Assembly: GCA_018401695.1 (NCBI GenBank)
Contig: JAGYKD010000002.1
Span: 364,636 to 428,635 of the forward strand
Origin: Flavobacteriales bacterium
GTDB taxonomy: Bacteria > Bacteroidota > Bacteroidia > CAIKAF01
Direction: 5' to 3'
Length of the DNA stretch: 64,000 nt
This document shows positions 452-55,389 of the stretch, piece by piece. The position numbers and the translations under genes are program-made. The notes below the pieces were generated by a model that had not been told where the DNA came from, ran no database searches, and worked only from the letters and a program-made list of their open reading frames with translations. Numbering within the stretch: position 1 is the stretch's first letter; each line of letters begins with the position of its first letter.

Positions 452-537
452 GGCGGCATCGACAGCTTTCTAGGGCGGCACCCACAGCTTTCTCAGAAAA
501 GGCCTACGAATTTTCGTAAGGGCTTGTGGGTGTTGGT
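452..537 (+). repeat. Hairpin repeat R, copy 1 (R1)
   Basis: First of six direct copies of a ~65 bp element. The head (GGCGGCA..CACAGCTTTCT) is partly duplicated here at 452-471 and 474-491. The outer arms CACCCACA (479-486) and TGTGGGTG (525-532) are perfectly complementary, and the apex contains TACGAA-TT-TTCGTA (505-518). The copy lies 9 nt after the preceding stop codon. Confidence 0.8.
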
Positions 538-550
538 TTGGGGCGTGGAG

Positions 551-600
551 CAGACCATATACAGAGTAAGTTTGAGAGTGATAGCGGAGGGTGATTTTTC
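551..600 (+). repeat. Dispersed motif S (copy 1)
   Basis: A block around ACAGAGTAAGTTTGAGAGTG follows R1 and recurs after R2 (3250-3300). Looser forms occur at 6320-6368, 7280-7330, 8129-8170, 8549-8590 and 9857-9945. It often begins with CCCCGGACCAA and precedes either the RHS leader or a palindromic array. Its function is unknown. Confidence 0.6.
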
Positions 601-744
601 CTGCATTTTCCAAGCCTATATGAGTATCTATATTTTGAAGATCTGGGAGCCCCCGCCCCGTGAACAAGTTACGGAATCCCACACGGGGAGTCGTGAATTA
701 AACGTTTATAAACGGATAGTCTTGAGATTTTTCTAACTTGAGGT

Positions 745-2142: not shown

Positions 2143-2147
2143 TTATT

Positions 2148-3155
2148 ATGCTAGTCATACTTTTAAGCATTCTATTTCTTTTATTTACTTTGAACAGTTT
2201 TAGTCAAGAGACAATTCTTTTGGATATAGAGAGATTGGCAACTGAAGATCCGGAGCAAGAAAACTTTACGGTTAGCTTTGAATTAACGGATACTAGCAGT
2301 TCTCTTACGTGGTTTACTTTGAGCGGAAGCTTATGTAGCGGTCTTTTATGCAAGGAGTTAAGTGTTATTAGAGCTGGGGATACTTTATTTTCTTTATTTT
2401 ATAATAAATCCATCTTGGATAGTACTCAAGTATATGATAATAAATTGATTTCGAGTGAGGGGAGAACATATCTTTTGAATAATTTCCATAACGATTACTC
2501 CCCTAGTCATTGTTATTTTCCTCCAATAGACTCTTTTTCAAATGCACACAATACTCTTGTAAGGCGAAATGTTGAAATTGATTCTTTAGAAAGGATTTTA
2601 AGAGTTCCGAGCAAAATTCAGCGTACAGATAGTTTGGTACTGTCTCAGATGTTTTGCAACGGTTGGGATATTAAAGGTAAATTCTACCCCTACAAAAGAA
2701 AAATGGCAGCAGAATATTGGGAAAAATTTGTTATAAATTTGAAAGCAAGTAAAGTTGCAGGTTTTTTTATAGTGTTCGAGGTGGTTTATTGGAATAATGG
2801 AGCAAACTTTTCCTATTTTCCTTACAGAATATATCCAATTCTTGAGAATTGGGACTCTATTCCAGAGTCTTTTTGGGGGTTCGAGTTTTCATTATTTTAT
2901 ATCCAAACAAATTTTCCTGAGTTTTATAGTAAAATACTTGATTGGGATATTTTTGACCCGAGCGAAGAAATAGCAGTGTTAGGAATTGGTTCATTGTGTG
3001 AAAAAGAAAATTTTATGCAAAAGCAGTCAGATATGAATTTCAGGGCATTTTCTAAGTTGCAGATTGAGTTGGTAGCTTCTCTCTTCATTAGGGATTGGTT
3101 CTGCAATGTCCGTTACACTGACCCTAATTCATTTTTTAATCAGTTAAAGAAATAG
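2148..3155 (+). CDS. Secreted hypothetical protein, partner of RHS tip 1
   Basis: This 335-aa protein has an N-terminal signal peptide (MLVILLSILFLLFTLNSFSQ, likely cleaved near SFSQ-E). The mature part is rich in Ser, Phe, Tyr and Asp with several Cys, and I recognise no domain. The gene starts 5 nt after the RHS tip stop and is equally AT-rich, so the two probably travel and are transcribed together. In RHS polymorphic-toxin loci the gene directly after the tip is usually immunity; here that is an inference from position. It is larger than most immunity proteins, and the signal peptide implies an action in the periplasm or at the surface. Confidence 0.7.
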   Translation: MLVILLSILFLLFTLNSFSQETILLDIERLATEDPEQENFTVSFELTDTSSSLTWFTLSGSLCSGLLCKELSVIRAGDTLFSLFYNKSILDSTQVYDNKLISSEGRTYLLNNFHNDYSPSHCYFPPIDSFSNAHNTLVRRNVEIDSLERILRVPSKIQRTDSLVLSQMFCNGWDIKGKFYPYKRKMAAEYWEKFVINLKASKVAGFFIVFEVVYWNNGANFSYFPYRIYPILENWDSIPESFWGFEFSLFYIQTNFPEFYSKILDWDIFDPSEEIAVLGIGSLCEKENFMQKQSDMNFRAFSKLQIELVASLFIRDWFCNVRYTDPNSFFNQLKK

Positions 3156-3173
3156 TCGTTATTGGACGACACG

Positions 3174-3240
3174 GGGCGGCATCCACAGCTTTCTCAGAAA
3201 AGGCCTACGAATTTTCGTAATGGCTTGTTATTTTGGGTTT
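3174..3240 (+). repeat. Hairpin repeat R, copy 2 (R2)
   Basis: Same head and apex as R1 (GGCGGCATCCACAGCTTTCT, then TACGAA-TT-TTCGTA), but the right outer arm is degenerate (TTGTTATTTTG). It lies 18 nt after the stop at 3155 and opens the second copy of the RHS leader. The leader at 3174-3595 closely matches 472-890. Confidence 0.8.
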
Positions 3241-3444
3241 TGGGGCGTCCCCGGACCAAAACAGAGTGAGTTTGAGAGTGATAGCGGAGGGTGATTTTTC
3301 CTGAATTTTCCAAGCCTATAAGAGCATTTATATTTTGAAGATCTGGGAGCCCCCGCCCCGTGGACAAGTTACGGAATCCTATACCGGTAGCCGTAAATTA
3401 AACGTTTATAAACGGATAGTCTTGAGATTTTTCTAACTTGAGGT

Positions 3445-4863
3445 ATGCAATGGGCCGTCCAGACCAAGAACAATAAAGCATCCGATGGAATTTGCTTTTC
3501 AAGGGAAGACAAGGCGGTGACATGGCTTGGGCCCGCAGCATACTGGAAGTATGTGAGGAGTCCAAGGCGAGGCACCAACGCAGTATTCCACCGAAGCTGT
3601 ACGTTCGGGGCTGCAAGCACGCCAGAAAACAGGTTTCGCAATTGTTTTGGAAGAACAAACTCCAAAGAATCCAGCGGAATTTGCTTTTCAAGGGAAGGCA
3701 AGGCGGTGGCTTGGCTTGGGCCCGCAGCATACTGGAGGTATGTGAGGAGTCCAAGGCGAGGCACCAACGCAGTATGCCCGCCAGAAAACAAATTCCGCAG
3801 CGGGTATTGGGCGGATGTGGTGAGTACTACGGATTATTATCCGTTTGGGATGGGGATGGTTGAACGGGGGGATGATGGGAGGTATCGGTATGGGTTTAAT
3901 GGGCAGGAGCGGGATGATGAGGTTGCGGGAGCCGGGAATTCGTATACCGCTGAGTTTTGGCAGTATGATAGTAGGTTGGGGAGAAGGTGGAATGTGGATC
4001 CAGTGGTCAAATCCTATGCATCAAATTACTCGGTTTTTAGTAATAATCCACTGACAATGGTGGATCCAGATGGAGCAGCGGATTTTTATAATGAAGCTGG
4101 AGTAAAAGTTGGAACAGATGGGAATCCGGATGGGATTATTTATATACTGACTTCAGAAGCTGATATAAAAAAGGCTATGCATTCCTATTATGGAAAAGGA
4201 ATTATGGGTTTTTTCCGTCAATTATTTGGAACAAAAGGCAGAGGAACCATCCAAAGGGATGCATTTAACGGCGATGTATATGTACTTCCTCCTCCAGTAG
4301 TAAGACAGGCCATGCTTGATGCGGTTGATGCGTCTAACGGCCCCTCCGGCTTAGACGAAGATGGAGGATTCCATGAAGAGGGTGGATATTGGGGGTTAGA
4401 TAAAAATGGGAATATGGTAGTAGTTCCAGCAAAGCCGGGTAGTTGGGTGGATCCAAGTAATGAGGGCGCTAGGGCTCAAATTAATGTCTTTGATGCAGTG
4501 GATAAAGAGCTAGCAGCATCAGTGGTCACGATATTAGGGACATACCATGTCCATCCAAGTGGAAAGTTGGCTATTGCAGTGAAAGCAAACAATGAAACTT
4601 CTAACGTTACTTCTATAGGATTCCAAGGTGAACCAACTTCATATAATGCATTTGATCAGCATCCATCACGCACCGACGTGAAAAGGGCAGGAGAAAGGAA
4701 TCTTGAGAACAACTTTGTATTGGGAGCCAGAAACGGAAGTATTTATATTTACGGTTCAGAAGGTGAAAACACGAGACAAAGTCGTGATATAAGTGAAAAT
4801 TCATATAACTCCCATAAAGCAACTTCCCCTATCGAAAGATTTAAAGAATTGACTCCAGAATAG
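3445..4863 (+). CDS. Displaced RHS tip 2 with a JAB/JAMM-like metallopeptidase domain
   Basis: This 472-aa frame has the same start context as tip 1. Residues ~1-118 translate two P elements and a spacer. RHS core motifs follow (DYYPFGMGM, YRYGFNGQERDDE, RLGRRWNVDP, NNPLTMVDPDG). The C-terminal ~250 residues are unrelated to tip 1. They carry a JAMM-like metal-site pattern: a candidate catalytic Glu at 311/312 (HEEGGYWG), H368-V-H370-P and S408-R-T-D411, then FVLGARNGSIYIYGSEG. Similar HxHP..SxxD endings are known in RHS-linked JAB domains. The spacing between HxHP and SxxD (~36 residues) exceeds the canonical JAMM spacing, which suggests an insertion. I infer a peptidase or isopeptidase effector tip; substrate unknown. 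The tip is detached from its RHS shell. Confidence 0.75.
   Translation: MQWAVQTKNNKASDGICFSREDKAVTWLGPAAYWKYVRSPRRGTNAVFHRSCTFGAASTPENRFRNCFGRTNSKESSGICFSREGKAVAWLGPAAYWRYVRSPRRGTNAVCPPENKFRSGYWADVVSTTDYYPFGMGMVERGDDGRYRYGFNGQERDDEVAGAGNSYTAEFWQYDSRLGRRWNVDPVVKSYASNYSVFSNNPLTMVDPDGAADFYNEAGVKVGTDGNPDGIIYILTSEADIKKAMHSYYGKGIMGFFRQLFGTKGRGTIQRDAFNGDVYVLPPPVVRQAMLDAVDASNGPSGLDEDGGFHEEGGYWGLDKNGNMVVVPAKPGSWVDPSNEGARAQINVFDAVDKELAASVVTILGTYHVHPSGKLAIAVKANNETSNVTSIGFQGEPTSYNAFDQHPSRTDVKRAGERNLENNFVLGARNGSIYIYGSEGENTRQSRDISENSYNSHKATSPIERFKELTPE
3486..3638 (+). repeat. Palindromic element P, copy B
   Basis: Same arms as copy A, with an inserted ~35 bp (around 3588-3622) before the right arm GAAAACAGGTTTCG. 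It is separated from copy C by a 36-bp spacer. The frame of the RHS tip stays open through both copies. Confidence 0.7.
3675..3797 (+). repeat. Palindromic element P, copy C
   Basis: A 123-bp copy of the same length as copy A and nearly identical to it, with arms at 3675-3689 and 3784-3797. It joins the RHS core at GCGGGTATTGGGCGGATG, the segment also found at 1099-1116 in tip 1. Confidence 0.75.
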
Positions 4864-4870
4864 AAGTGTG

Positions 4871-5323
4871 ATGTGTAAAGAGATATTAATAGCTTTCTTT
4901 TTGATTAACCAGTTTGCTTTTAATTCTTGTTTAGGACAAAAGCAGAAAGATTTGCTAGTTTATTTCGGAGGAGAAATTGAGGATTACAGATTTGGGTGCG
5001 AGGTCAAGGACTTTTATTTGATTGATAGTGTTGGAGAAGAAATTCGACCTGCTTTGTACACAAATGGTTTCAAAATACCTCCATTGGATACTGGATTTTA
5101 CAATGTATGTTTTGTACTTCAAAGGAACACTTTTTGCTTTTATGAAATGAGTTTGTATTCAATCACTAATGGTGCTTGGAGGTTTTCTATTTACACAAAA
5201 CCTTTCAAGGGCGTTGATCCATCTTTAGTTATAGACAGGCCAAAAACATTTAAAACAATGATTATGCTAAATTTTTCGGGGATGATTCAATATAGGTTTT
5301 TAAAACAAAGGTTTAAGCCATAG
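4871..5323 (+). CDS. Secreted hypothetical protein, partner of the JAB-type RHS tip
   Basis: This 150-aa protein has a signal peptide (MCKEILIAFFLINQFAFNSC, then LGQ). The Cys in NSCLG could also be a lipidation site, although the lipobox is poor. A GTG lies one codon upstream of the chosen ATG. The gene starts 7 nt after the RHS tip stop. The mature domain has a YFGGEIEDYRFG segment and predicted beta strands; I recognise no family. Like the other small genes here it is AT-rich and ends 9 nt before an R repeat. I infer a partner or immunity role from position only. Confidence 0.7.
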   Translation: MCKEILIAFFLINQFAFNSCLGQKQKDLLVYFGGEIEDYRFGCEVKDFYLIDSVGEEIRPALYTNGFKIPPLDTGFYNVCFVLQRNTFCFYEMSLYSITNGAWRFSIYTKPFKGVDPSLVIDRPKTFKTMIMLNFSGMIQYRFLKQRFKP

Positions 5324-5332
5324 GTTTTGCAT

Positions 5333-5400
5333 GGCGGCATCCACAGCTTTCTCAGAAACCCCGACGAATTTTCGTAAAGCCTTGAGGCTGTTGGTATTCG
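5333..5400 (+). repeat. Hairpin repeat R, copy 3 (R3)
   Basis: Head GGCGGCATCCACAGCTTTCT, apex GACGAA-TT-TTCGTA, tail CTGTTGGTATTCG. It lies 9 nt after the stop at 5323. Confidence 0.8.
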
Positions 5401-5502
5401 TAAATTTTTATTGTTTTGGGTTGGTTTTGGGAGTAAATGGAAATTTGGTGAGGAGCAGAAGGGAAGGTTAGAATTTACCGGTTTTTAATTTTGTGTTAAG
5501 GG

Positions 5503-5814
5503 TTATGGCAAATTTTTTATTCTCTTTGACCACTTTTCGGGGTTTATTGATGTGTGGAATACTGCCCTTAAAATGACCGATTTTAAACTCTCATCCACTG
5601 TAAAATGAAGCATAAACGGAAATTTTTTCATAGGTAAGCATCGTACATTATCGTAACGGATGTTAAAGAAGGGATGTTTTTCTAAAACAAGTAAGTGCTT
5701 ATTTAAACTTTCTTCAAATCTTTTTCCTAAACCTATTTCTTGCTCTTCATAATAGTCAATAGCCTGTTGGATGTCTTTAATAGCTTCAGGATCAATGAAA
5801 ATACTGAAAGTCAT
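5503..5814 (-). CDS. ParE/RelE-superfamily toxin
   Basis: This 103-aa protein has the small-toxin fold pattern: an N-terminal helix pair (AIKDIQQAIDYYEEQEIGLGKRFEESLNKHL), then a strand segment (PFFNIRYDNVRCLPMKKFPFMLHF) and a C-terminal strand (KSVILRAVFHTSINPEKW). ParE-type toxins of this shape act on gyrase and RelE types on ribosome-bound mRNA; the sequence does not settle which. It overlaps the upstream antitoxin gene by 4 nt (ATGA), the usual translational coupling. It runs opposite to the RHS modules. Confidence 0.8.
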   Translation of the reverse strand: MTFSIFIDPEAIKDIQQAIDYYEEQEIGLGKRFEESLNKHLLVLEKHPFFNIRYDNVRCLPMKKFPFMLHFTVDESLKSVILRAVFHTSINPEKWSKRIKNLP

Positions 5815-6026
5815 TTTAAAGGGTTTTCTTTAAAAATAAAATGCTTTCTGGCATCCTCCCATGGAACCATTTTATCCGTTTCCGTAGTGCTGATTCTTCT
5901 GCGAACCTCAGCTTTATGCTGCTCCGTAATGTTTGTTTGTTCAGAAACTTCAATCCCAAGTTGATTCATAAGTTCCAACACAAAACTTAATTTATTCTCC
6001 GGTATTCTTATTGTTAGCTCTTTCAT
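5811..6026 (-). CDS. Antitoxin of the ParE/RelE-like module
   Basis: This 71-aa protein begins MKELTIRIPENKLSFVLELM, a short beta strand plus helix typical of DNA-binding or dimerising antitoxin N-termini. A charged, flexible C-terminal half (VRRRISTTETDKMVPWEDARKHF) would wrap the toxin. It is the first gene of the two-gene unit and probably autoregulates it. The family assignment rests mainly on context and size. Confidence 0.7.
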   Translation of the reverse strand: MKELTIRIPENKLSFVLELMNQLGIEVSEQTNITEQHKAEVRRRISTTETDKMVPWEDARKHFIFKENPLK

Positions 6027-6448
6027 AATATTCTAAAAAGTAGTTTTATAACCATTATTTGACTTATTAGCTCTCAAGCCTTCTGATATGTCAAATACTT
6101 TGTGGGTATTTCAAATTTAGTCAATTTAAATAGATTCTAAAAATGTCTGATTATTCGGTAAACAGACCTCAACCACCGTCTAAGCCAATGCCATGTCCAC
6201 CCATGGTCAATGGGTAAAAATGTATTCACCCTAGGGGCAAAATGGTCAAATGGGTTCCCGTAGCGACGGATTGGCACGCGTTGCTACGGTTAATAATTAT
6301 TATTTAGGTAAATATGAGCCCCCGGAAAATCAGCGTGGGTTTGGGAGTGAGAGTGACGAGAATGAGGAGAAGATGCCGTAGTAGCGACGCATTGCCATGC
6401 GTCGCAGAGCGAAGGATTCCTCTAAGTTTTGTGATCTTGATAGAATGC
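6027..6448. other. Non-coding stretch with degenerate palindromes
   Basis: No credible gene is visible. It holds a decayed GTAGC..GCTAC palindrome (6260-6287), an S-like block (6320-6368) and one copy of the GCGACGCAT..ATGCGTCGC palindrome (6384-6405). A 24-codon Pro-rich frame (6143-6217) is too short to support. Confidence 0.6.
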
Positions 6449-6613
6449 GGCCCCCGGCCAGGAGGAGGACCGCCCGAAGCGCAGGCGGTAGGGCAAAGGC
6501 CAGCGAGGATTCCGAACCTTAGAGAGGAACCCGGAGCGTCCTGCGCCCTCGGCTGCGGGAGGGAGTCCGGAACCAAGGCCGGATAGAATAGTAAAGTGTC
6601 CTATGGGCAAGGC
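6449..6613 (+). repeat. 165-bp structured repeat, copy 1 (E7a)
   Basis: It matches 10042-10206 over 165 bp with no length change. It contains nested complementary segments (GGGCAAAGGCC against GGCCTGCGCCC in copy 2) around AGCGAGGA..CCCGGAGC. That apical motif is shared with the gene-terminal E elements at 38.4 and 54.6 kb. No ORF on either strand looks real. Confidence 0.75.
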
Positions 6614-6668
6614 CCCAAGACAGCAAGAGGGTAGGGACGCATTGCCATGCGTCCCAGCAAGAGTAGCG

Positions 6669-7213
6669 ACGCATTGCCATGCGTCGTCATAAGCGCATGG
6701 CCATGCGTCGTCATAAGCGCATTGCCATGCGTCGTCATAAGCGCATGGCCATGCGTCGTCATAAGCGCATTGCCATGCGTCGTCATAAGCGCATGGCCAT
6801 GCGTCGTCATAAGCGCATTGCCATGCGTCGTCATAAGCGCATGGCCATGCGTCGTCATAAGCGCATTGCCATGCGTCGTCATAAGCGCATGGCCATGCGT
6901 CGTCATAAGCGCATTGCCATGCGTCGTCATAAGCGCATGGCCATGCGTCGTCATAAGCGCATTGCCATGCGTCGTCATAAGCGCATTGCCATGCGTCGTC
7001 ATAAGCGCATTGCCATGCGTCGTCATAAGCGCATTGCCATGCGTCGTCATAAGCGCATTGCCATGCGTCGTCATAAGCGCATTGCCATGCGTCGTCATAA
7101 GCGCATTGCCATGCGTCGTCATAAGCGCATTGCCATGCGTCGTCATAAGCGCATTGCCATGCGTCGCCCTAAGCGCATGGCCATGCGTCGTCATAAGCGC
7201 ATTGCCATGCGTC
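6669..7213 (+). repeat. Tandem array of 24-bp palindromic units
   Basis: About 22 full units plus a partial unit, in strict 24-bp register. Each unit holds CGCATGGCCATGCG (perfect palindrome) or CGCATTGCCATGCG, followed by TCGTCATAAG. From 6693 the two variants alternate for about 12 units, giving a 48-bp higher-order period; then nine uniform TTG units follow; a variant unit (TCGCCCTAAG) sits near the end. Because 24 is divisible by three, long spurious ORFs exist on both strands. Confidence 0.9.
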
Positions 7214-7420
7214 CCGGCAAGAGTTTTAAACAAGAGCAACAGGGTTTGTAGCGGAAAATCATCATGATGCGCCAATATCCCCCCCGGAATAGAGCGATTT
7301 TGAGCGTGATAGCGATAAGTGATTTTTTTCTGGAAACGCCTGAGCCAACAAGAGTTTCTATGCATTGGAAATTGGCCAGCCTCCTCAAGGTTCAATCCAA
7401 GGGTTAGGCGAAACAATTAA

Positions 7421-7451
7421 TACTTAATTACGTACTTAATTAGTAATTTTG
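7421..7451 (+). promoter_or_regulatory. yefM-yoeB promoter and probable operator
   Basis: Two direct TACTTAATTA boxes (7421-7430 and 7433-7442) lie immediately upstream of, and touching, a -7 box TAATTTTG (7444-7451). The start codon follows 12 nt later. The arrangement suits autorepression by the antitoxin; the operator role is inferred. Confidence 0.55.
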
Positions 7452-7463
7452 AAAAAATGAAGC

Positions 7464-7715
7464 ATGAAAGTAGTTAATTATACCGATTTAAGGGTTAACC
7501 TTAAAAAGTGGCTAGATTTGGTGGTTGATGATGTAGAAGAACTTGTCATTAAGCGAATGAATAATAAGGATGTGGTTTTGATCTCCTTGAATGAGTACAA
7601 CGCCCTAAAAGAGACAAGCTATCTTTTGAGTGGTAAAAATAGAGAAGTACTCATGCAATCGCTTAAAGAGTCCAAAGCAGGCAATAAATCCGAACAACAA
7701 TTGTTGGAAGAATGA
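7464..7715 (+). CDS. yefM: YefM/Phd-family antitoxin
   Basis: This 83-aa protein has the Phd/YefM N-terminal fold (MKVVNYTDLRVNLKKWLDLV, then a hydrophobic strand ELVIKR..KDVVLISLNEYNALKET) that dimerises and binds the operator. A polar C-terminal tail neutralises the toxin. It overlaps the toxin gene by 4 nt. Family identity is clear; autoregulation is expected from the family and from the repeated boxes upstream. Confidence 0.9.
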   Translation: MKVVNYTDLRVNLKKWLDLVVDDVEELVIKRMNNKDVVLISLNEYNALKETSYLLSGKNREVLMQSLKESKAGNKSEQQLLEE

Positions 7716-7966
7716 GGATTGTTTGGACCTCAACTGCCTGGAAAGATTATCTTTATTGGCAAGCTACAGACAAAGTTAAAGTAAAAAGGATCAATGAACT
7801 GATTAGGGCAACCTTGCGAGAACCCTTTTCAGGAATTGGAAATCCAGAGCCTCTAAAACATGATTTACAGGGGTTTTGGTCAAGACGAATAGACGCAGAG
7901 CACCGTTTGGTGTATTGTTTTGAGGATGATGATTTGGAGATCATCGCTTGCCGATACCATTATTGA
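7712..7966 (+). CDS. yoeB: YoeB-family mRNA interferase toxin
   Basis: This 84-aa protein matches YoeB along its whole length: DYLYWQATDKVKVKRINELI, EPFSGIGNPEPLKHDLQGFW, SRRIDAEHRLVY and the C-terminal ACRYHY. The catalytic-site residues of the family (Glu, Arg, His and the terminal HY) are present, so the toxin looks intact. YoeB cleaves mRNA at the ribosomal A site when freed from YefM. The stop codon lies 44 nt before repeat R4. Confidence 0.93.
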   Translation: MRIVWTSTAWKDYLYWQATDKVKVKRINELIRATLREPFSGIGNPEPLKHDLQGFWSRRIDAEHRLVYCFEDDDLEIIACRYHY

Positions 7967-8010
7967 AGATTTTGGTTTGGTGTTCGAGTTTTGACCGCTG
8001 TTGGCGCACA

Positions 8011-8070
8011 GCGGCATCCACAGCTTTCTCAGAAAAGGCCTACGAATTTTCGTAAGGACTTGTGGTTGCT
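8011..8070 (+). repeat. Hairpin repeat R, copy 4 (R4)
   Basis: Head GCGGCATCCACAGCTTTCT, apex TACGAA-TT-TTCGTA, right arm TGTGGTTG pairing with CATCCACA except for one T-T mismatch. It lies downstream of yoeB. Confidence 0.8.
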
Positions 8071-8172
8071 GGTTTTGGAACGAAAATAAATTTTTGTTAA
8101 TGCAAACCCTAAACGAAGCAAAATCCGCGCCCCGGACCAAGACAGAGTGAGTTTGAGTGTGAGAGTGGGGAT

Positions 8173-8531
8173 GTAGCGACGCATCATCATGCGTCGCCAT
8201 GGTTTGTAGCGACGCATCATCATGCGTCGCCGTGGTTTGTAGCGACGCATCATCATGCGTCGCCATGGTTTGTAGCGACGCATCATCATGCGTCGCCATG
8301 GTTTGTAGCGACGCATCATCATGCGTCGCCGTGGTTTGTAGCGACGCATCATCATGCGTCGCCATGGTTTGTAGCGACGCATCATCATGCGTCGCCATGG
8401 TTTGTAGCGACGCATCATCATGCGTCGCCATGGTTTGTAGCGACGCATCATCATGCGTCGCCATGGTTTGTAGCGACGCATCATCATGCGTCGCCATGGT
8501 TTGTAGCGACGCATCATCATGCGTCGCCATG
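8173..8531 (+). repeat. Tandem array of 33-bp palindromic units
   Basis: Eleven units (ten complete) in 33-bp register. Each carries arms GCGACGCAT and ATGCGTCGC around a CATC loop, then CATGGTTTGTA. Units differ mainly by GCCATGG versus GCCGTGG. S motifs flank the array on both sides. There are no unique spacers, so it is not a CRISPR. The core palindrome is the same as in the 24-bp array. Confidence 0.9.
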
Positions 8532-8666
8532 AATCCGGTTAAAATCAGTCCCGGACCAAGACAGGGTGAGTTTGAGTGTGAGAGCGGAGAATGTGTCTTT
8601 ATAAATTGACACTGCAGGTGAGCGTATCAATTTTTTAAGTATCCAAGCCCCCGGATGCCATAGCCA

Positions 8667-8730
8667 GGCGGCATCCACAGCTTTCTCAGAAAAGGCCTAC
8701 GAATTTTCGTCATGCCTTATGGTTGTTGGT
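8667..8730 (+). repeat. Hairpin repeat R, copy 5 (R5)
   Basis: Head GGCGGCATCCACAGCTTTCT, apex TACGAATTTTCGTC, tail GGTTGTTGGTATTCG. It lies between the 33-bp array and the VapC-like module. Confidence 0.8.
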
Positions 8731-8855
8731 ATTCGATAGTGTCTAAAAAAGCGCGAAAAGAGATTTTTCTTATAAAGGTTCTTTTAAGGATGTTACATCC
8801 TTTGCAAATTGAATTCCTTCAGCTTTTTAGGGATGCCGCCCGATGGTTTGAAGTA

Positions 8856-9260
8856 TTATTGCGGCGAATCGGTATCAAAGGGATTTATAATTTCAAGTTT
8901 ACTTATTTTTTTGAAATCATCCACATTTCTGGTCAAAAGGGTGAACCCTTGAGCTATTGCGGTAGCAGCTATAATGGCATCCGGTATTTTAACCTTGTGT
9001 TTTTTTCGAATTTCGGCAGTCTTTAATTTAATGCTTCGATTTAGTTCCATTACCTGTATCGAGGCAATGAATTCCTGAAGCATTAAATAATCTTTTTTAT
9101 TGGCAGTTTTCCAACACAGGAGTTCTATTTCAGTTATAACCGAAATGGATGGAATATGATTTTTTAAGGATTGTTCAATAACTTTTTCAGCAGGGGGGGA
9201 GAGTTGATTTTGTAAAAAGTAAATGACAATATTGGTATCCCAAAGGTAACTTACTCCCAT
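8856..9260 (-). CDS. vapC: PIN-domain (VapC-like) ribonuclease toxin
   Basis: This 134-aa PIN protein has the acidic catalytic set at expected places: Asp in YLWDTNIVIYFL near residue 8, Glu in SVITEIELL near 43, Asp in IPDAIIAATAIA near 94, and Asp in TRNVDDF near 114. VapC toxins are Mg-dependent RNases acting on tRNA or rRNA. It overlaps the antitoxin gene by 10 nt. All key residues are present, so the enzyme is probably active. Confidence 0.88.
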   Translation of the reverse strand: MGVSYLWDTNIVIYFLQNQLSPPAEKVIEQSLKNHIPSISVITEIELLCWKTANKKDYLMLQEFIASIQVMELNRSIKLKTAEIRKKHKVKIPDAIIAATAIAQGFTLLTRNVDDFKKISKLEIINPFDTDSPQ

Positions 9261-9460
9261 GAGCTTCTTAACTGGTTTAATTGTTTTTCAACATGTTCCT
9301 TTGATTGTGGGCTCATTCTGCCTTTAAATTTTACTAAGTCAAGGCTATTCGCTGATGGAATTGAATCCATTTTTCTCAATTTTATGAGCTTTAATGCTTC
9401 TAATTCTTGAAAAAGCCTTAGGACTTTTTCATTAATAATTTCTATGGTTATTACTTTCAT
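9251..9460 (-). CDS. Antitoxin partner of the VapC-like toxin
   Basis: This 69-aa protein begins MKVITIEIINEKVLRLFQEL, a beta strand and helix resembling the N-terminus of DUF2281-like antitoxins. A basic middle and a C-terminal helix rich in Gln and Glu follow. It sits directly upstream of, and overlapping, vapC, so the antitoxin role follows from context and size. Confidence 0.72.
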   Translation of the reverse strand: MKVITIEIINEKVLRLFQELEALKLIKLRKMDSIPSANSLDLVKFKGRMSPQSKEHVEKQLNQLRSSWE

Positions 9461-9625
9461 CTACCAATATTTGAAATGTGTAGCCTTAATCAATTAAACT
9501 GCTTGGGACTAACGCCTCCTTTATTGAAAAATGTATGCAAAATCGCACGAATATTCTTCGCTGTCTGTAAATATACGATTTTCGGATGAATGTATCACTT
9601 ATGAAGGCATTGCTATGCGTCGCAG

Positions 9626-9695
9626 GGCGGCACCCACAGCTTTCTCAGAAAAACTCTATGGATTTTCGTCAAGGCTTGTGGGTGTTGATATTCGC
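9626..9695 (+). repeat. Hairpin repeat R, copy 6 (R6)
   Basis: Outer arms CACCCACA (9631-9638) and TGTGGGTG (9677-9684) are perfect, as in R1, but the apex is degenerate (TATGGATTTTCGTC). A half palindrome of the GCGACGCAT type abuts it at 9607-9624. Confidence 0.75.
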
Positions 9696-9931: not shown

Positions 9932-9984
9932 CAGCGTGGGTTTGGGTTCCGTAGCGACGCATTGCCATGCGTCGCATCAAAAGG

Positions 9985-10012
9985 GTAGCGACGCATGGCC
10001 ATGCGTCGCTAC
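9985..10012. repeat. Perfect 28-bp palindrome (full-length REP-like unit)
   Basis: Two 14-nt arms, GTAGCGACGCATGG and CCATGCGTCGCTAC, are exactly complementary with no loop. It is the complete form of the core found in both tandem arrays; a second shorter copy lies at 9951-9975. Palindromes of this GTAGCGACGCAT type are common in Bacteroidota and have no settled function. Confidence 0.85.
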
Positions 10013-10936: not shown

Positions 10937-10994
10937 ATTGGGAGGGCAAATATAGTGTTTTTTAAAGAACAAGAAGGGTTTTTGGGCCGCTTAT

Positions 10995-11123
10995 CCGGCT
11001 GTTTGCTGCAAGTCCTCCTCCAAAAGCTTGGCTTTTTGGTTTGCCCCGGGGCTTGCTGCGCGCCGCCGCGGAGCAAACTCAAAAAGCCTAAGCTTTTGCT
11101 GTCCGGGCTTTCCGCGTCCATCC
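10995..11123 (-). repeat. Gene-terminal structured element E5
   Basis: Read on the minus strand it starts GGATGGA 10 nt after the stop of the CoA-binding protein and ends ACAGCCGG. A long imperfect stem includes CAAAAGCTTAGGC against GCCAAGCTTTTG. The top (CGCGGCGGCGCGCAGCAAG..CCCCGGGG) resembles that of E4. It is in sense orientation to the preceding gene. Confidence 0.7.
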
Positions 11124-11133
11124 GGGCGGCTTG

Positions 11134-21708: not shown

Positions 21709-21736
21709 ATGCTTTACACACGGAGCTTGAGGCGCA

Positions 21737-21874
21737 GGGATAGAGGCCGGGAGCGCTTTTTGGCAGAGGCTATAGGCGGCTTAGGCGCGGACGTGGAGCT
21801 TAGCGGAACGCCCACAGCCTTAGCCGCCTAAGCCTAGGCCGAAAAGCCGAAGGCCGAAAGCCCGTTAGCGCCCC
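21737..21874 (+). repeat. Structured element E6 (divergent member)
   Basis: It begins GGGATAGA rather than GGATGGA. A long stem (TAGGCGGCTTAGGCG against GCCTTAGCCGCCTA) carries a top containing GCGGACGTGGAGC..GCGGAACGCC. It lacks a clean GACAGCC end. It lies after the lipoprotein terminator and just before the ppk1 promoter. Confidence 0.5.
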
Positions 21875-24310: not shown

Positions 24311-26695
24311 TTACTTATTAAAAATGCGTTTAAAACGGAGAAACTCTTCTCTGGCCACCTCAATATTTCCTTCGCCGTCTCCAAAGTTTATGAAGCCATA
24401 GGCATCGGAGCTTTCCAGTTCCACAACGTCATACTTTTTGAGGGTAACGTAGCTTTTGCTCAAAATAGCCCCCCTTTCGCTTGTAGCTACCACTCGATTC
24501 CGTTCTTCCTCGGTTTCAAAAATACGAATGTTGTTGTTTCGGCGCATTTCGCGCAGCTCTTGCTCTTGCCTCCAAAGGGCTTCGGCTTTTGCGGTGCTGT
24601 CTTGTATGCGAGTCCATTCTTTTGCCTTGGCGGTGGAGTCTTGAATAAACTCCCAACGGGCCTTTGCTTGGGCAGTTGAGTCGGCAATAAATGCCAATCG
24701 ATCTTTGGCTTTGGCAGTAGAATCGGCAATAAACTGTTGGCGGGCTTTCTCTTTGGCTGCTGCCTCTGCCTCGGCCTTGGCTTGCTCGGCTTTGGCCGTG
24801 GAATCGGCAACAAAGGCTTTGCGTTTTTCCAAAGCTATGGAATCGGCAATGAATTGTTTACGCGCCTCTACTTTTGCTGTTGAATCGGCAATAAAGGTTT
24901 GTCGTTTGGCTTGGGCGATAGAATCGGCCATGAATTGTTGTCTGGCTTCTGCTTGGGCCTTGGCTTGTGCCTCTGCTTCGGCTTTTGCTTGTTCGGCTTT
25001 GGCCGTAGAGTCGGCAATAAATGCTTGACGTTTGGCTTGGGCGATAGAATCGGCCATGAATTGTTGTCTGGCTTCTGCTTGGGCCTTGGCTTGTGCCTCT
25101 GCTTCGGCTTTGGCTTGTTCGGCTTTGGCCGTAGAGTCGGCAATAAATGCTTGACGTTCGGCTTGGGCAATGGAATCGGCGATGAACTGTTGTCTGGCTT
25201 CTGCTTCTGCTTCTGCTTTGGCTTGAGCTTCGGCTTCGGCTTTGGCTTGTTCGGCTTTGGCCGTAGAGTCGGCAATAAATGCTTGACGTTTGGCTTGGGC
25301 GATAGAATCGGCCATGAATTGTTGTCTGGCTTCTGCTTGGGCCTTGGCTTGTGCCTCTGCTTCGGCTTTGGCTTGTTCCGCTTTGGCGGTAGAATCGGCA
25401 ATAAATGCTTGACGTTCGGCTTGGGCAATGGAATCGGCGATGAATTGTTGTCTGGCTTCTGCTTGGGCCTTGGCTTGTGCCTCTGCTTCGGCTTTTGCTT
25501 GTTCGGCTTTGGCCGTAGAGTCGGCAATAAAAGTTTGACGTTCGGCTTGGGCAATGGAATCGGCGATGAACTGTTGTCTGGCTTCTGCTTCGGCTTTGGC
25601 TTGCGCATCGGCTTCGGCTTTGGCGGTAGAATCGGCAATAAAAGTTTGACGTTTGGCCTGAGCAATGGAATCGGCGATGAACTGTTGTCTGGCTTCTGCT
25701 TCGGCTTTGGCTTGCGCATCGGCTTCGGCTTTTGCGGTAGAGTCGGCAATAAATTGTTTTCGTTCAGCTTGGGCAGTAGAATCTGCTACAAACTGGTCTC
25801 GTTGAATCTTAGCGAGCGAGTCTGCAACAAATTGTTGTCGTTCGGCTTGGGCGGTAGAGTCTGCAATAAACTGCTGTCTTTGCACTTGAGCCAGAGAGTC
25901 TTGCATTAGCTGCCTTCGTTGGGCAAGGGCAATGGAGTCTTGAATTTCTTTTTGGCGTTCCAAGGCTTTTGCAGTAGAATCGGCAATAAACGCTTGTCTT
26001 TCTTTGGCTTGAGCTGTGGAGTCGCGCATGAATCGCTCCCTTTCTTTGGCTTGTGCTATGGAATCTTCGATGAAAAGTTGTCGAGCTCTAGCTTGAGCTA
26101 TGGAATCTTGAATAAACTGTTGCCTTTGTATTTGTGCCAAGGAATCGGCTTGCGCCAGGGAATCTTTTTTCTCTACTTGAGTAATGAGGGAATCTTTGAT
26201 TTGTTTGGCCATATTTTTTTGTCCCTCCATGGTGGCCATCATGGGCTTATCGAAATTAAAGGTAAAGTCTTGGTTATTAAAGGCAATCGTGGTTTCAATG
26301 GGGAGTTCGTCTACCAGTTCTTCCTCTTCTTTTACTTCTTCGGGAAGTTTAAAGAGGTAAAAATCTAAGTATAATGGCATGAGGCCGGCTTCAAGGGCCT
26401 CATCGCTTACGGTGGTATTGATTTTAACCAATTGAGGTTTGTAGCCTTCTGCAGCAATGTAGACCTCAAAGGATTGGCTAAGGTCGAGCTCAATAAGGAA
26501 AGTTCCGTCGGGCTTAAGTTTTATACCTTTTTTCCGCTTTCCTTCTTCACCAATGGAGATAAATAATTCAATGGGACCATCTTCGGCTTCAACTCGCCCT
26601 TCTACTTCTAAAAAGTTTTGGGCTTTCAGGGGAGAAAAAAGGCTGGCAAGTGCCACATAGCATAGGAGAAATACAAATCCTTTGGTCAGATTCAT
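24311..26695 (-). CDS. Secreted protein with a long Ala/Gln/Glu coiled-coil repeat region
   Basis: This 794-aa protein has a signal peptide (FVFLLCYVALASLFSPLKAQ). An N-terminal beta domain (residues ~25-115, VEGRVEAEDGPIELFISIGEEG) resembles carboxypeptidase-regulatory folds. From ~190 to ~705 there are ~40 repeats of a 10-14-residue unit of the form RQxFIADSxAQA, grouped into larger blocks of about 43 residues with AEQAKAEAEAQAKA. This predicts a very long helical rod or fibre. The C-terminal ~70 residues are globular (YVTLKKYDVVELESSDAYGF). The repeats are close at DNA level, so length variation by recombination is likely. Function is unknown; an envelope-spanning or structural role is a guess. 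Confidence 0.8.
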   Translation of the reverse strand: MNLTKGFVFLLCYVALASLFSPLKAQNFLEVEGRVEAEDGPIELFISIGEEGKRKKGIKLKPDGTFLIELDLSQSFEVYIAAEGYKPQLVKINTTVSDEALEAGLMPLYLDFYLFKLPEEVKEEEELVDELPIETTIAFNNQDFTFNFDKPMMATMEGQKNMAKQIKDSLITQVEKKDSLAQADSLAQIQRQQFIQDSIAQARARQLFIEDSIAQAKERERFMRDSTAQAKERQAFIADSTAKALERQKEIQDSIALAQRRQLMQDSLAQVQRQQFIADSTAQAERQQFVADSLAKIQRDQFVADSTAQAERKQFIADSTAKAEADAQAKAEAEARQQFIADSIAQAKRQTFIADSTAKAEADAQAKAEAEARQQFIADSIAQAERQTFIADSTAKAEQAKAEAEAQAKAQAEARQQFIADSIAQAERQAFIADSTAKAEQAKAEAEAQAKAQAEARQQFMADSIAQAKRQAFIADSTAKAEQAKAEAEAQAKAEAEAEARQQFIADSIAQAERQAFIADSTAKAEQAKAEAEAQAKAQAEARQQFMADSIAQAKRQAFIADSTAKAEQAKAEAEAQAKAQAEARQQFMADSIAQAKRQTFIADSTAKVEARKQFIADSIALEKRKAFVADSTAKAEQAKAEAEAAAKEKARQQFIADSTAKAKDRLAFIADSTAQAKARWEFIQDSTAKAKEWTRIQDSTAKAEALWRQEQELREMRRNNNIRIFETEEERNRVVATSERGAILSKSYVTLKKYDVVELESSDAYGFINFGDGEGNIEVAREEFLRFKRIFNK

Positions 26696-37637: not shown

Positions 37638-37676
37638 AACAGGGCCAGTGGCATGAAATTTGTATTTTGCACCTAT

Positions 37677-38435
37677 ATGATGAGGTGTAGATTGTTATGT
37701 GTGTTGTGGGGGAGTTTGGCCTTGGCTTGGGGGCAAGATACCTTGCCGGCGCCTGATTGGGGAACCAACGTTTGGCGTGCACCTTACCGAGATTCGGTGG
37801 GAAATGCCATAGGTCGCTTTTCGAATCAAGTAAGAGATATTGCCCAAGCTTCCGTTCCCAAGGAACCTGTTGTTTTTGTTGGAAGCAGCTCCGTGCGTGC
37901 TTGGCGTAGTTTGGAGGAGGATTTCCCCAATTTCCCCGTGTCTAACAGCGGGTTTGGGGGGAGTACCTTACCTGAGCTTAGCTTTTACCTCAAAGCATTG
38001 GTATTGGACAAAAATCCATCTATGGTGGTGGTGTATTGCGGGGAAAACGATTTGACCTTAGCCTATTCCCGACCGCAGGAAGTGTTTGGATCCTTTTTGG
38101 AGCTGGCCGGTTTGTTGAAGCAAGCGCTTAAACAAGGGACACCGGTTGTTTTTATAAGCGTTAAACCCTCCATTTATTCTTGGGAGTACTGGGAAAAGCA
38201 GCAGCAATTCAACCGGATGGTGGAGCTTTTTGATGCTTGGGCAGACTGGCCGGAATTTCACTTTGTGCGGATGGAACATTTGCTTTTAAATGCCGATGGG
38301 GAGCCTGACCCTGCACTGTTTATACGGGATGGATTGCATTTGAACAAAAGCGGTTATCAAAAATGGACCATGTTTTTGAGGCCCAAGCTGGAGCGCATGT
38401 ACAAAGAATTACGGGGCCCGGATGGAGCAAAGTAG
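37677..38435 (+). CDS. Secreted SGNH/GDSL hydrolase
   Basis: This 252-aa protein has a signal peptide (RCRLLCVLWGSLALAWGQ). SGNH blocks: block I VVFVGSSSVRAW (nucleophile Ser), block II Gly in NSGFGGSTLPEL, block III Asn in VVYCGENDLT, block V Asp/His in FIRDGLHLNKSGYQ. All catalytic positions are present. It is a periplasmic esterase, possibly removing or transferring acetyl groups on envelope glycans. A -7-like TATTTTG lies 7 nt upstream of the ATG. The last codons (PDGAK-stop) lie inside element E1. Confidence 0.88.
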   Translation: MMRCRLLCVLWGSLALAWGQDTLPAPDWGTNVWRAPYRDSVGNAIGRFSNQVRDIAQASVPKEPVVFVGSSSVRAWRSLEEDFPNFPVSNSGFGGSTLPELSFYLKALVLDKNPSMVVVYCGENDLTLAYSRPQEVFGSFLELAGLLKQALKQGTPVVFISVKPSIYSWEYWEKQQQFNRMVELFDAWADWPEFHFVRMEHLLLNADGEPDPALFIRDGLHLNKSGYQKWTMFLRPKLERMYKELRGPDGAK

Positions 38436-38551
38436 CTGACCGAAGCCTAGCTTTTTGGCGGGCTTTGGAGCGAGGAGGCCCCCGAGCCTTCGGGGGACCC
38501 CGGAGCCCAAAGCCCGCAAAGCTAGGAGAGGGCACTACTTGGGACAGCCGG
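38420..38551 (+). repeat. Gene-terminal structured element E1
   Basis: It starts GGATGGA inside the last codons of the SGNH gene, whose TAG (38433-38435) lies in the first stem, and ends GGGACAGCCGG. Stems: AAGTAG/CTACTT; CCTAGCTTT..GCGGGCTTTGG against CC-AAAGCCCGC-AAAGCTAGG; and a top AGCGAGGAGGCCCCCGAG..CGGGGGACCCCGGAGC. Confidence 0.8.
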
Positions 38552-38643
38552 ATTAGCCCCCCAAATTAGATGTTCACTATAGCCGGTTGAAAAATTAAAT
38601 CGTGTTTTTGTCGTTAAAGAAATTATTTGCTGAAATTAGAAGT

Positions 38644-44363: not shown

Positions 44364-44381
44364 TTTTGGGGGCAGCTTCGC

Positions 44382-44509
44382 CCGGGCTGTCTCTGCAAGC
44401 TGTTTTGCTTTGCCCCGCAGCTGCATGCCGGCCCGGGGTTTGCTGCGCGCCACCGCGGCCCGTCAGCAGTTGCAGGGGCTAAGCTTCAACAGGCTTTCCG
44501 TTCCATCCC
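44382..44509 (-). repeat. Gene-terminal structured element E4
   Basis: On the minus strand it starts GGGATGGA 10 nt after the stop of the histidine kinase gene and ends GAGACAGCCCGG. The apex (CCGCGGTGGCGCGCAGCAA..CCCCGGG) matches that of E5. It also lies between the convergent MBOAT and kinase genes. Confidence 0.75.
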
Positions 44510-44519
44510 TTGCCCGGAT

Positions 44520-48111: not shown

Positions 48112-48711
48112 ATGCACTGGAATCGTATACATTACTTAGCATTTGTTGGAGGAGCTGTAGTACTCGCTGCTTTGTCGCGCCTGCTTCCTCATCCCCATAA
48201 CTTCACTCCATTGGTAGGTATGGCTCTGTTTGCCATGGCTTATATGCCCAAAGCCTGGCAAGCCATTGCAATTACTATGTTGAGTTATTTGCTTAGCGAT
48301 GCCCTAGTCAATGCATTTTTGCATCCTGAAGCATCCTCTTGGGCCTACTTTGTATCTCCAACGGCGCTTGGGGTTTATGTAGCTATGCTTTTGGTTTCCG
48401 GTTTAGGTTTTGCTTTAAAAGGCAAAGCCCTCAAGACTTCTCGTCTAATGGCCGGCAGTATCTCCGGGTCTTTTGTGTTTTACCTGGTCTCCAATACCGC
48501 TGTATGGTTGGGTTCCGCTTATTATGCCAAAAGCTTTACCGGCTGGTTGACGGCTTTGTATGCGGGTATTCCTTTTTATCAAGCCAACGACATATTGTCT
48601 TCTTTTTTCTTGAATCAAATCATAGGTGATTTGTTTTTTACAGGGCTGCTCTTTGGCGCCTATGCATTGGTTAATAAGGGCAGCTTAAAGCCGGCACGGA
48701 TTGGTTCATGA
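48112..48711 (+). CDS. DUF6580-like integral membrane protein
   Basis: This 199-aa protein has about five transmembrane helices (LAFVGGAVVLAALSRLL, FTPLVGMALFAMAYM, ITMLSYLLSDALVNAFL, LGVYVAMLLVSGLGFAL, GDLFFTGLLFGAYALV). Marks such as NFTPLVGMALF, LSDALVNAF and SNTAVWLGSAYYAKSFTG fit the DUF6580 family, whose layout resembles ECF-transporter S components. The substrate is unknown. The stop overlaps the start of the next gene by 4 nt. Confidence 0.8.
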   Translation: MHWNRIHYLAFVGGAVVLAALSRLLPHPHNFTPLVGMALFAMAYMPKAWQAIAITMLSYLLSDALVNAFLHPEASSWAYFVSPTALGVYVAMLLVSGLGFALKGKALKTSRLMAGSISGSFVFYLVSNTAVWLGSAYYAKSFTGWLTALYAGIPFYQANDILSSFFLNQIIGDLFFTGLLFGAYALVNKGSLKPARIGS

Positions 48712-49880
48712 ACATGCCGCTTTCTTGGTGGGAATACCAAGATGCCTACCATAATCCCGAACTTTGCATTGTTGGTGCCGGTATTGTAGGCCTGAGCACA
48801 GCGCTTTTTTATGCCCAACAGCGTCCCAAAGCAAAAATTGTAGTACTTGAGTCCGGCAACCGTCCCTCCGGTGCAAGTCTTAGAAATGCAGGTTTTGCTT
48901 GTTTTGGTTCGGTAGGCGAAATTGCCGATGACCTAAAGCACAGCAGCCTCGAGGCAACCATAGCACTTATGGCAGCAAGAAGGCGAGGCTTAGCGCTTTT
49001 GCGGAAGATTCATGGCGATAAAGCCCTTTCCTTGGATGCCTGTGGCGGGTATGAGTTGTTTTTTTCGGAAGAAAAAGAAGCCGCAGAGCAGGCCTTGGAT
49101 TTGCTTCCCAAGCTCAATCAAAGCTTATTGGAAGCAGGAGTATTTGCCAAGGAGGTATACCGCATGGTAAAGCCTTCCGATTTGCCAAAAAATTCATTCA
49201 AGGGACTTCATTTGGCCATTTTTCATGCCGAGGAGGCCGCGCTAAATCCGGTGCATTTGTGGCAATCGCTCTTGCAAAAATGCCTGAGTCTTGGCGTCCG
49301 TTATCAGCCGGGTGTGGCCTTAACCGCGCTACCCGAAGCCGAAGATGCCAAGGGGTATATGTGTTCCTGTTTCGGCTTTGAATTTAGGACCAAGCGATTG
49401 GTAATGGCCACCAATGCCTTTGCCCATCATTTTTTGCCAAACCAAGTTCAGCCTGCCCGTGCTCAGGTGTTGGTTAGTACCCCATTACATTTGGATTTGC
49501 CTCAGGGGACTTTTCATCACCACAAGGGATACAACTATTTTCGCTTTGTAGAAGGGCGCTTATTGTTGGGTGGAGGAAGGCATTTGAATCCGCAAGCCGA
49601 GGCAAATATGGAGGCTGACACGAGCGAGGAAATTCAACAGTATTTGGAAGCATTTGCCCAAGAAAAGCTTGGAATTACGGGCTTAAATATTGAGCACCGT
49701 TGGTCCGGATTTATGGGCATGGGGAAAGCCAAAATGCCCAAAATCGAGAAAGACAAAGAGGGTAGGGTTTGGGCGGTGCGTTTGGGAGGCATGGGGGTAG
49801 CTTTGGGCACCGAAATTGGCCAAAAAGCCGCTGCACTTTGTTTGGAAGATTCACCCCACACCAGGGATGGAACAAGCTAG
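48708..49880 (+). CDS. FAD-dependent oxidoreductase of the DAO family
   Basis: This 390-aa protein has the dinucleotide motif CIVGAGIVGLSTALFYAQ, ESGNRPSGASLRNAGFACFG (FAD contact), RLVMATNAFAHHF and the C-terminal MGMGKAKMPKIEKD..GRVWAVRLGGMGVALGTEIG. It resembles glycine/D-amino-acid oxidases and deaminases; the substrate is not defined. It is translationally coupled to the membrane protein upstream. The last residues (RDGTS-stop) are encoded by element E2, as with the 3' ends at 38.4 and 54.7 kb. Confidence 0.87.
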   Translation: MNMPLSWWEYQDAYHNPELCIVGAGIVGLSTALFYAQQRPKAKIVVLESGNRPSGASLRNAGFACFGSVGEIADDLKHSSLEATIALMAARRRGLALLRKIHGDKALSLDACGGYELFFSEEKEAAEQALDLLPKLNQSLLEAGVFAKEVYRMVKPSDLPKNSFKGLHLAIFHAEEAALNPVHLWQSLLQKCLSLGVRYQPGVALTALPEAEDAKGYMCSCFGFEFRTKRLVMATNAFAHHFLPNQVQPARAQVLVSTPLHLDLPQGTFHHHKGYNYFRFVEGRLLLGGGRHLNPQAEANMEADTSEEIQQYLEAFAQEKLGITGLNIEHRWSGFMGMGKAKMPKIEKDKEGRVWAVRLGGMGVALGTEIGQKAAALCLEDSPHTRDGTS

Positions 49881-49990
49881 CCGGCGAAGGGCAAGCCTTA
49901 GCAAGGCATGGCTGAGGAGGCGGAGGAACGGAGCCACCACAAGCCTTGGCTTGCTTAGGCTTGCCCAAGACGCTAGCTGAGACAGCCCGG
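49864..49990 (+). repeat. Gene-terminal structured element E2
   Basis: It starts GGGATGGA within the last codons of the oxidoreductase gene (TAG at 49878-49880) and ends GACAGCCCGG. Stems: AGCTAGC/GCTAGCT and GGGCAAGCCT/AGGCTTGCCC. A separate hairpin CCCGGC-TTCG-GCCGGG follows directly (49991-50006). Confidence 0.8.
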
Positions 49991-50078
49991 CCCGGCTTCG
50001 GCCGGGGGTGCCCAAATCACAAAAATCAAGGTGCTATGCATAGGTTCCAACATGGGGCGGTGCTTCCTCGATAAATTG

Positions 50079-54468: not shown

Positions 54469-54572
54469 GGTCCTTAAGATTAAGTGTTACTGTAATTTGA
54501 GCCGGCAAATATCTGTATTATAATTGGATTATTTCTCTTTTTTTCTCTTTTCTTTTTTTGGCGGCCTTTTCC

Positions 54573-54700
54573 TGCTGTCTGCGGTAGTTCCCCTTAAGCC
54601 GCTTAGGCGGGGCGGCGCTCCGGGGTCCCCCGTTAGCTCGGGGGCCTCCTCGCTGCACGCCTCGCCAAAGCGCCTTAAGGGAAAGCTACCTGCTTCCATC
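54573..54700 (-). repeat. Gene-terminal structured element E3
   Basis: On the minus strand it starts GATGGA inside the last codons of the NUDIX gene (PDGSR-stop) and ends GACAGC. Stems: GGTAGC..ACTACC-type outer arms, TTCCCTTAAGGCG against the matching right arm. The top AGCGAGGAGGCCCCCGAG..CGGGGGACCCCGGAGC is the same as in E1. Confidence 0.8.
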
Positions 54701-55321
54701 AGGGGCCGAAATCCACGCACTAAACTCGCCCAACATAATGGCTGTTGCTCCCCATACCCATTCTTGCTCCAACCAAAATCCATTGGTATTCAAGGATATT
54801 CCTGAGGCAAGGGACAGCCGACGCTGAGCTACCTCAGGCTCAGGAAATACTTTACACAAAGGCATGGGATGCACCGAGGCCACTTCTTTAACTTCTCTAA
54901 CAAATTCTAGTGGACGCTCACTTATGGCCACAAATGCTTGTACCCAAAAATTGCTCGGGGGAATGTATAAAGGACTTAAAGCGCCAATCATGTGGTAGGC
55001 CTCCAATTTAACCCCTAGCTCTTCCATCATTTCTCTTTGGGCAGCCGAGCCCTTGCCTTGATCCGACGGCTCGATTTTTCCGCCGGGAAGTCCCATTTGA
55101 TCATCATGCATGCCACCGCCCGAAGAACGCTTGATTAGAGGAATATGCCATTGACCCTGTGCGTTTGGGTAAAGTAAAATAAGCACCTCGCTTTCTTTGG
55201 GTCTTATATCTTTGGGAGGCGACAAGGGGCGCCCACCAACTAAGTAAGGGTTCTCCCCAAAACCGGGACTTGGGATTTGGGCACAACGTTCCAACCGTTG
55301 CTTTAGAGCTTCTGTTGTCAT
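54686..55321 (-). CDS. NUDIX hydrolase (CoA pyrophosphatase-like)
   Basis: This 211-aa protein has a Nudix box GLPGGKIEPSDQGKGSAAQREMMEELGVK with the REMMEELG core. SSGGMHDDQMGLPGGKIEP upstream fits the CoA-pyrophosphatase (NudL-type) signature. It would cleave CoA or acyl-CoA to phosphopantetheine and 3',5'-ADP. The ATG at 55321 is preferred to a TTG two codons upstream. Its last four codons overlap element E3. Confidence 0.88.
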   Translation of the reverse strand: MTTEALKQRLERCAQIPSPGFGENPYLVGGRPLSPPKDIRPKESEVLILLYPNAQGQWHIPLIKRSSGGGMHDDQMGLPGGKIEPSDQGKGSAAQREMMEELGVKLEAYHMIGALSPLYIPPSNFWVQAFVAISERPLEFVREVKEVASVHPMPLCKVFPEPEVAQRRLSLASGISLNTNGFWLEQEWVWGATAIMLGEFSAWISAPDGSR

Positions 55322-55389
55322 GTACAAATTTCGAAATTTTTACAAGCCAAGAGATGGTTAGCTTAAGGTAAGGCGCTGTGCATTTTGTG

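Follow-up and report, generated by a model that had tools for sequence, protein, structure and literature searches.

C-terminal DG tails of three unrelated Flavobacteriales proteins are probably incidental readings of a structured, mobile-derived repeat

Why do three unrelated proteins encoded close together in a Flavobacteriales genome all end in a DG-x-x tail followed by TAG? In the window, meaning the whole 64-kb stretch of DNA analysed, the reading frames of a GDSL/SGNH hydrolase (37653..38435, + strand; Pfam Lipase_GDSL_2), an FAD-dependent oxidoreductase (48708..49880, +; Pfam DAO) and a NUDIX hydrolase (54686..55327, -; Pfam NUDIX) end in PDGAK*, RDGTS* and PDGSR*, respectively, each in the frame GAT GGA xxx xxx TAG, while their Pfam domain matches stop short of these tails. 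The underlying GATGGA...TAG strings (38421-38435, +; 49866-49880, +; 54700-54686, -) each form the 5' end of one ~150-nt hairpin element, hereafter E1 (38411..38562, +), E2 (49856..50000, +) and E3 (54560..54710, -), which scored 132.9 (model R1), 92.4 and 142.8 bits, respectively, in covariance-model (CM) searches. The SGNH gene ends within E1 in CGG GGC CCG GAT GGA GCA AAG TAG (38412..38435, +), read as RGPDGAK*, the NUDIX gene ends within E3 in ISAPDGSR* (54686..54712, -), and the DAO gene ends within E2 after a read-through extension, SPHTRDGTS* (49851..49880, +). Single-copy folds of E1-E3 were better than those of 200/200 shuffles (z -6.8, -4.6 and -8.1).

The initial annotation had attributed the C-terminus and stop codon of all three proteins to the same element start. 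The exact codons and coordinates bear this out, the last codons and TAG are supplied by the element in all three cases, and the DNA beyond each stop continues as hairpin element. A reading frame that arrives at the element unstopped and in the GAT GGA register gains, as these three do, ...DG-x-x and then stops. We consider it highly probable, from comparison of sequences, that each DG tail is the 5' strand of a structured repeat of mobile origin, which lies flush with the gene 3' end and is read incidentally.

The shared tail is accounted for by the architecture of the element. Its 5' end runs from a G/C stem into GATGGA-N6-TAG, and its 3' end reads ...CTA-N5-GACAGC, followed in most copies by NGG-AWWA and a G/C stem strand. 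GATGGA lies opposite GACAGC over an internal loop and TAG is paired with CTA, so that spacing, string and in-frame TAG are fixed in the E subfamily, where the 6-nt spacer is constant and TAG is always in frame with GATGGA. A search of the 2.99-Mb genome for GATGGA-N6-TAGC returned 21 sites, 20 of which are elements, and long open reading frames read only the three window copies among these ~20; the remaining copies have 2-58 open codons in the DG frame. Calling the tails convergent, as had been proposed, was therefore too strong, since they are the element's own strand, set by its structure. Among 33 further similar copies in Bacteroidia MAGs, a reading frame of at least 100 codons runs in at three, one being the SGNH orthologue, one possibly a chance open frame and one entered in a different frame. 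Nevertheless, 3/3 GATGGA-type elements in the window are read in the DG frame, versus 0 of ~17 in the rest of the genome, and this is unusual (a 1 in 27 chance from frame alone), so that some selection for quick-stop fusions at the window elements is possible.

To follow the origin of the tails, we compared the window genome (G000) with its closest genome, that of a sister species (G002). The two are colinear across 50.5 kb, with no element gained or lost there, and their SGNH, DAO and NUDIX proteins are ~90% identical. G002 keeps the element at both the SGNH gene, with the nearly identical tail QGPDGAK*, and the NUDIX gene, with an identical tail. At the DAO gene, G002 has the same element at the same place, but its frame stops at GAT TAA, 11 nt before GATGGA, whereas in G000 the codon TCA (49851-49853) aligns to this TAA and the frame continues for nine codons to the element TAG. 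Given that other DAO orthologues end near the G002 stop position, loss of the stop in G000 beside a pre-existing element is the simpler direction, judged from two species and the length of these orthologues, the alternative being a gain in G002; the RDGTS tail would have arisen by this loss. No DG tail was found in distant orthologues (8 SGNH, 9 DAO and 8 NUDIX, the close species G002 left out), in keeping with the initial annotation; these orthologues, from other congeners and family members, also had no element wherever their downstream DNA was inspected. NUDIX orthologues were not found in congeners other than G002.

The initial annotation went further and held that the element had replaced the native 3' ends of the three genes. 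For DAO this does not hold, since the loss of a stop codon next to a pre-existing element accounts for the tail. For SGNH and NUDIX it stands as a possible, undated event: their tails consist entirely of element sequence common to G000 and G002, and the part of the NUDIX protein beyond WGATA is about as long as usual, so displacement of native residues is possible; against this, no empty SGNH or NUDIX site was found in a close relative. Remodelling of these C-termini by insertion is a tentative and less likely reading for the set as a whole. At SGNH and NUDIX, either insertion of the element at the 3' end or erosion of that end into the element may have preceded the G000-G002 split.

The entry of all three window genes in the same frame, and the conservation of two of the tails between G000 and G002, could also be read as selection for a common functional C-terminal tag or signal, which we regard as extremely unlikely. 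This conservation is explained by nucleotide constraint on the basal motif (~98% identity over 39 copies, nearly all noncoding), the remaining copies are noncoding, the three proteins have no apparent pathway in common, and DAO of G002 does without a tail. The tails look accidental and would be by-products that serve no function themselves.

The elements belong to a large family. A CM search, with a model built from 19 copies, gave at least 147 matches in this genome (150 of 575 candidates scored) and at least 76-77 in each of five congeners, so the element occurs in 5/5 congeners examined; some other genera of the family had fewer matches, and outside the family there were almost none. Pattern matches in unrelated phyla and viral contigs were set aside, as they look like single chance matches. 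An Rfam search of the window at gathering scores returned tRNA only and no element match, and a permissive Rfam search of 13 element loci gave chance matches only. The window holds six superfamily members by CM. Besides E1-E3, these are a fourth at 10984..11132 (-; 48.9 bits), where the upstream gene has its own TAA just before the element, a fifth with the variant motifs GATAGA/GAAAGC at 21729..21874 (+; 37.2 bits), which is 99.3% identical in G002 and follows an apparent hairpin-plus-T terminator, and a sixth at 44368..44517 (-; 32.8 bits), 2 nt after the TAA of its upstream gene.

All 108 elements examined for their neighbours are intergenic, often adjoin stop codons and show no clear orientation preference (gene-end combinations 29/29/27/19). 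A general role as 3'-UTR or terminator was rejected, since the elements are oriented at random relative to genes and their hairpins are seldom followed by T-runs. The Bacteroidota -7 motif was not enriched upstream of the elements, and a promoter of their own at a fixed upstream position was discarded on this ground. A TTGGAAG or TTCGGAG motif is frequent upstream; in the 5' flanks of 25 and 17 of the 108 elements, respectively, TTGGAAGA or a CGGAGC-type string precedes the first stem by 6-15 nt, and these strings, taken with the A-run at the 3' side, point to an additional outer stem, TTTTGG/CCAAAA, for some copies. Divergent inverted pairs of elements, with ~34-64 nt between their 5' ends, were seen in G000 at C14:125245-125580, C1:1263767-1264096, C1:933865-934195 and C1:1102094-1102454.

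The window also carries other repeats. The gene at 24311-26695 (-) has long internal tandem repeats with a period of 126-132 nt, which also align with the G002 copy in more than one register. At 6526-7341 and 8073-8600 there are arrays built of 24-nt and 33-nt units; the 24-nt unit contains CGCATTGCCATGCGTCGTCAT, and a similar single unit occurs at 9958-10002. Six irregularly spaced copies of a motif near CACAGCTTTCTCAGAAAAGGCCTACGAATTTTCGTAA lie within 467-9695; two of these, separated by 2700 nt, have duplicated flanks.

Full elements measure 136-160 nt with 45-59 predicted pairs, and their fold is reflected in covariation. Across 112 aligned copies, 17/17 consensus pairs covary, standard pairs fill 93% of cells versus 53% in shuffles, and double-change cells number 698 versus 213; sliding the pairing register by one column lowers the paired fraction to 43-55%. 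Because the aligning model itself carried a related structure, the alignment is biased towards pairing; an effect of this size, with GC, CG, AU and UA pairs replacing one another, would nevertheless be hard to obtain otherwise. In the variable arm pairs, G.U outnumbers A.C (29 versus 5, p=4e-5), which suggests that the shown strand corresponds to the sense-strand RNA; strand-biased mutation could partly account for the G.U excess and is the weaker alternative. A first mismatch count had pointed to an antisense RNA and was rejected, as it was driven by conserved fixed mismatches and is reversed in the variable arms alone.

In 39 orthologous pairs from G000 and G002, with the G002 loci picked by CM score, elements are 94.7% identical, versus 81.0% for adjacent intergenic DNA (p=1e-8) and 88.6% further out, with a step in identity at both element edges. 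For the six window elements, which were taken irrespective of their state in G002, identity is 93.8%, whereas genes reach 89.6% and the rest of the intergenic DNA 87.4%. The exception is E2, which is conserved less well than the sequence around it and whose stem shows 10 double compensatory changes relative to its G002 counterpart. Purifying selection acting copy by copy sits uneasily with a purely selfish repeat. The E element is one subfamily of a hairpin superfamily that is probably transcribed from the shown strand and kept by selection on its RNA fold, and some subfamilies appear to have moved recently.

For mobility, one subfamily has 13 copies with a median identity of 95% in two genomes. 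At one locus (G000 C13:107 kb versus G002 C40:53 kb), both flanks match and an element lies within a palindrome array in G002 only; G000 has a different palindrome array there without an element, a pattern in which gain and loss are indistinguishable. In a second comparison (L295/L333), only one flank matched, and a candidate empty site (L297/L335) was dismissed, since an orthologous element does occur there, set apart by a palindrome array.

Might the transposases of this genome move the elements? It has four PF01797 (Y1_Tnp) genes, three of which have a superfamily member within ~0.5 kb, one of these an E element ~100 bp away, and the high-identity copies adjoin short palindrome arrays. Both observations would fit REP/REPIN-type repeats moved by RAYT-like (Y1_Tnp) transposases, as would the report that neighbouring ORFs often obtain their TAG stop from the termini of GTAG REPs, likewise many-copy extragenic palindromes (Di Nocera et al. 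2013, PMC3733652). However, REP units measure 20-40 bp, their stems span 5-13 bp and GTAG is unpaired at one end, whereas the elements here are ~150 nt long with ~45-59 predicted pairs and conserved internal loops, and any GTAG they contain is paired with CTAC within the stem; moreover, each Y1_Tnp gene has its own flanking short-palindrome arrays. We therefore hold the REP/REPIN reading to be rather doubtful, and take the proximity of elements to Y1_Tnp genes as a lead, not proof. At the Y1_Tnp loci of G000 (L030-L033), the array beside each gene consists, for example, of GCTTCCAAAGGAAGC or GACCCCTTCGGGGTC, and such arrays would represent several REP-like families within one Bacteroidota genome.

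A second route would be SINE-like spread through reverse transcription of a tailed RNA, given the A-run of variable length that directly follows the 3' edge in most copies and is absent at the 5' edge. This is very unlikely: four element-rich congeners (G001, G003, G004 and G005) had no RVT_1 match, the A-run, being able to pair with a T-run upstream, may belong to the fold, and no target-site duplications are shown.

The supply of stop codons by palindromic repeats is already a known phenomenon. Bacterial MITEs (Correia/NEMIS, ERIC, RUP and YPAL; PMC2229807) are likewise ~100-200 bp long and mostly intergenic, occasionally form in-frame gene fusions and give long stem-loop transcripts, as the elements here are predicted to. 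MITE-type repeats have been reported in gene fusions, and an RU-3 repeat is fused C-terminally to LivJ (PMC2229807). Our elements are small, high-copy, hairpin-forming and intergenic and carry no transposase gene of their own, and the locus described above provides one pair of filled and empty orthologous sites, within differing palindrome arrays. In contrast to most MITEs, which have terminal inverted repeats and often TA termini, their arms vary by copy and are held by pairing, and a target duplication is not shown. Rickettsia palindromic elements (PMC2229807) are also palindromes of 105-146 bp that are incorporated into proteins and tolerated, but they insert within ORFs and stay open, whereas here the element TAG closes the frame after the four codons that start with GATGGA. 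The G.T pairs of GTAG REPs have been taken to suggest RNA function (PMC3733652). Within its limits, the literature searched held no published description of this element family or of the two-species DAO case.

The DAO gene offers a clean two-species view in which a stop codon appears to have been lost and an adjoining repeat ends translation nine codons later. As for the family itself, the elements may, somewhat speculatively, represent a lineage-specific set of ~150-nt RNAs, hundreds in each genome, that have a new cellular function independent of the genes they adjoin; every locus would be under purifying selection for one architecture (a GATGGA/GACAGC basal loop and a GAGGAGG..ACCCCGGAGC head), with arm sequences diverging through compensatory double substitutions. 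Repeats so numerous, orthologously kept, more conserved than neighbouring genes and marked by paired compensatory changes are unexpected for inert selfish DNA, and the family would thus provide a natural set of more than 100 independent structure-function comparisons in one genome.
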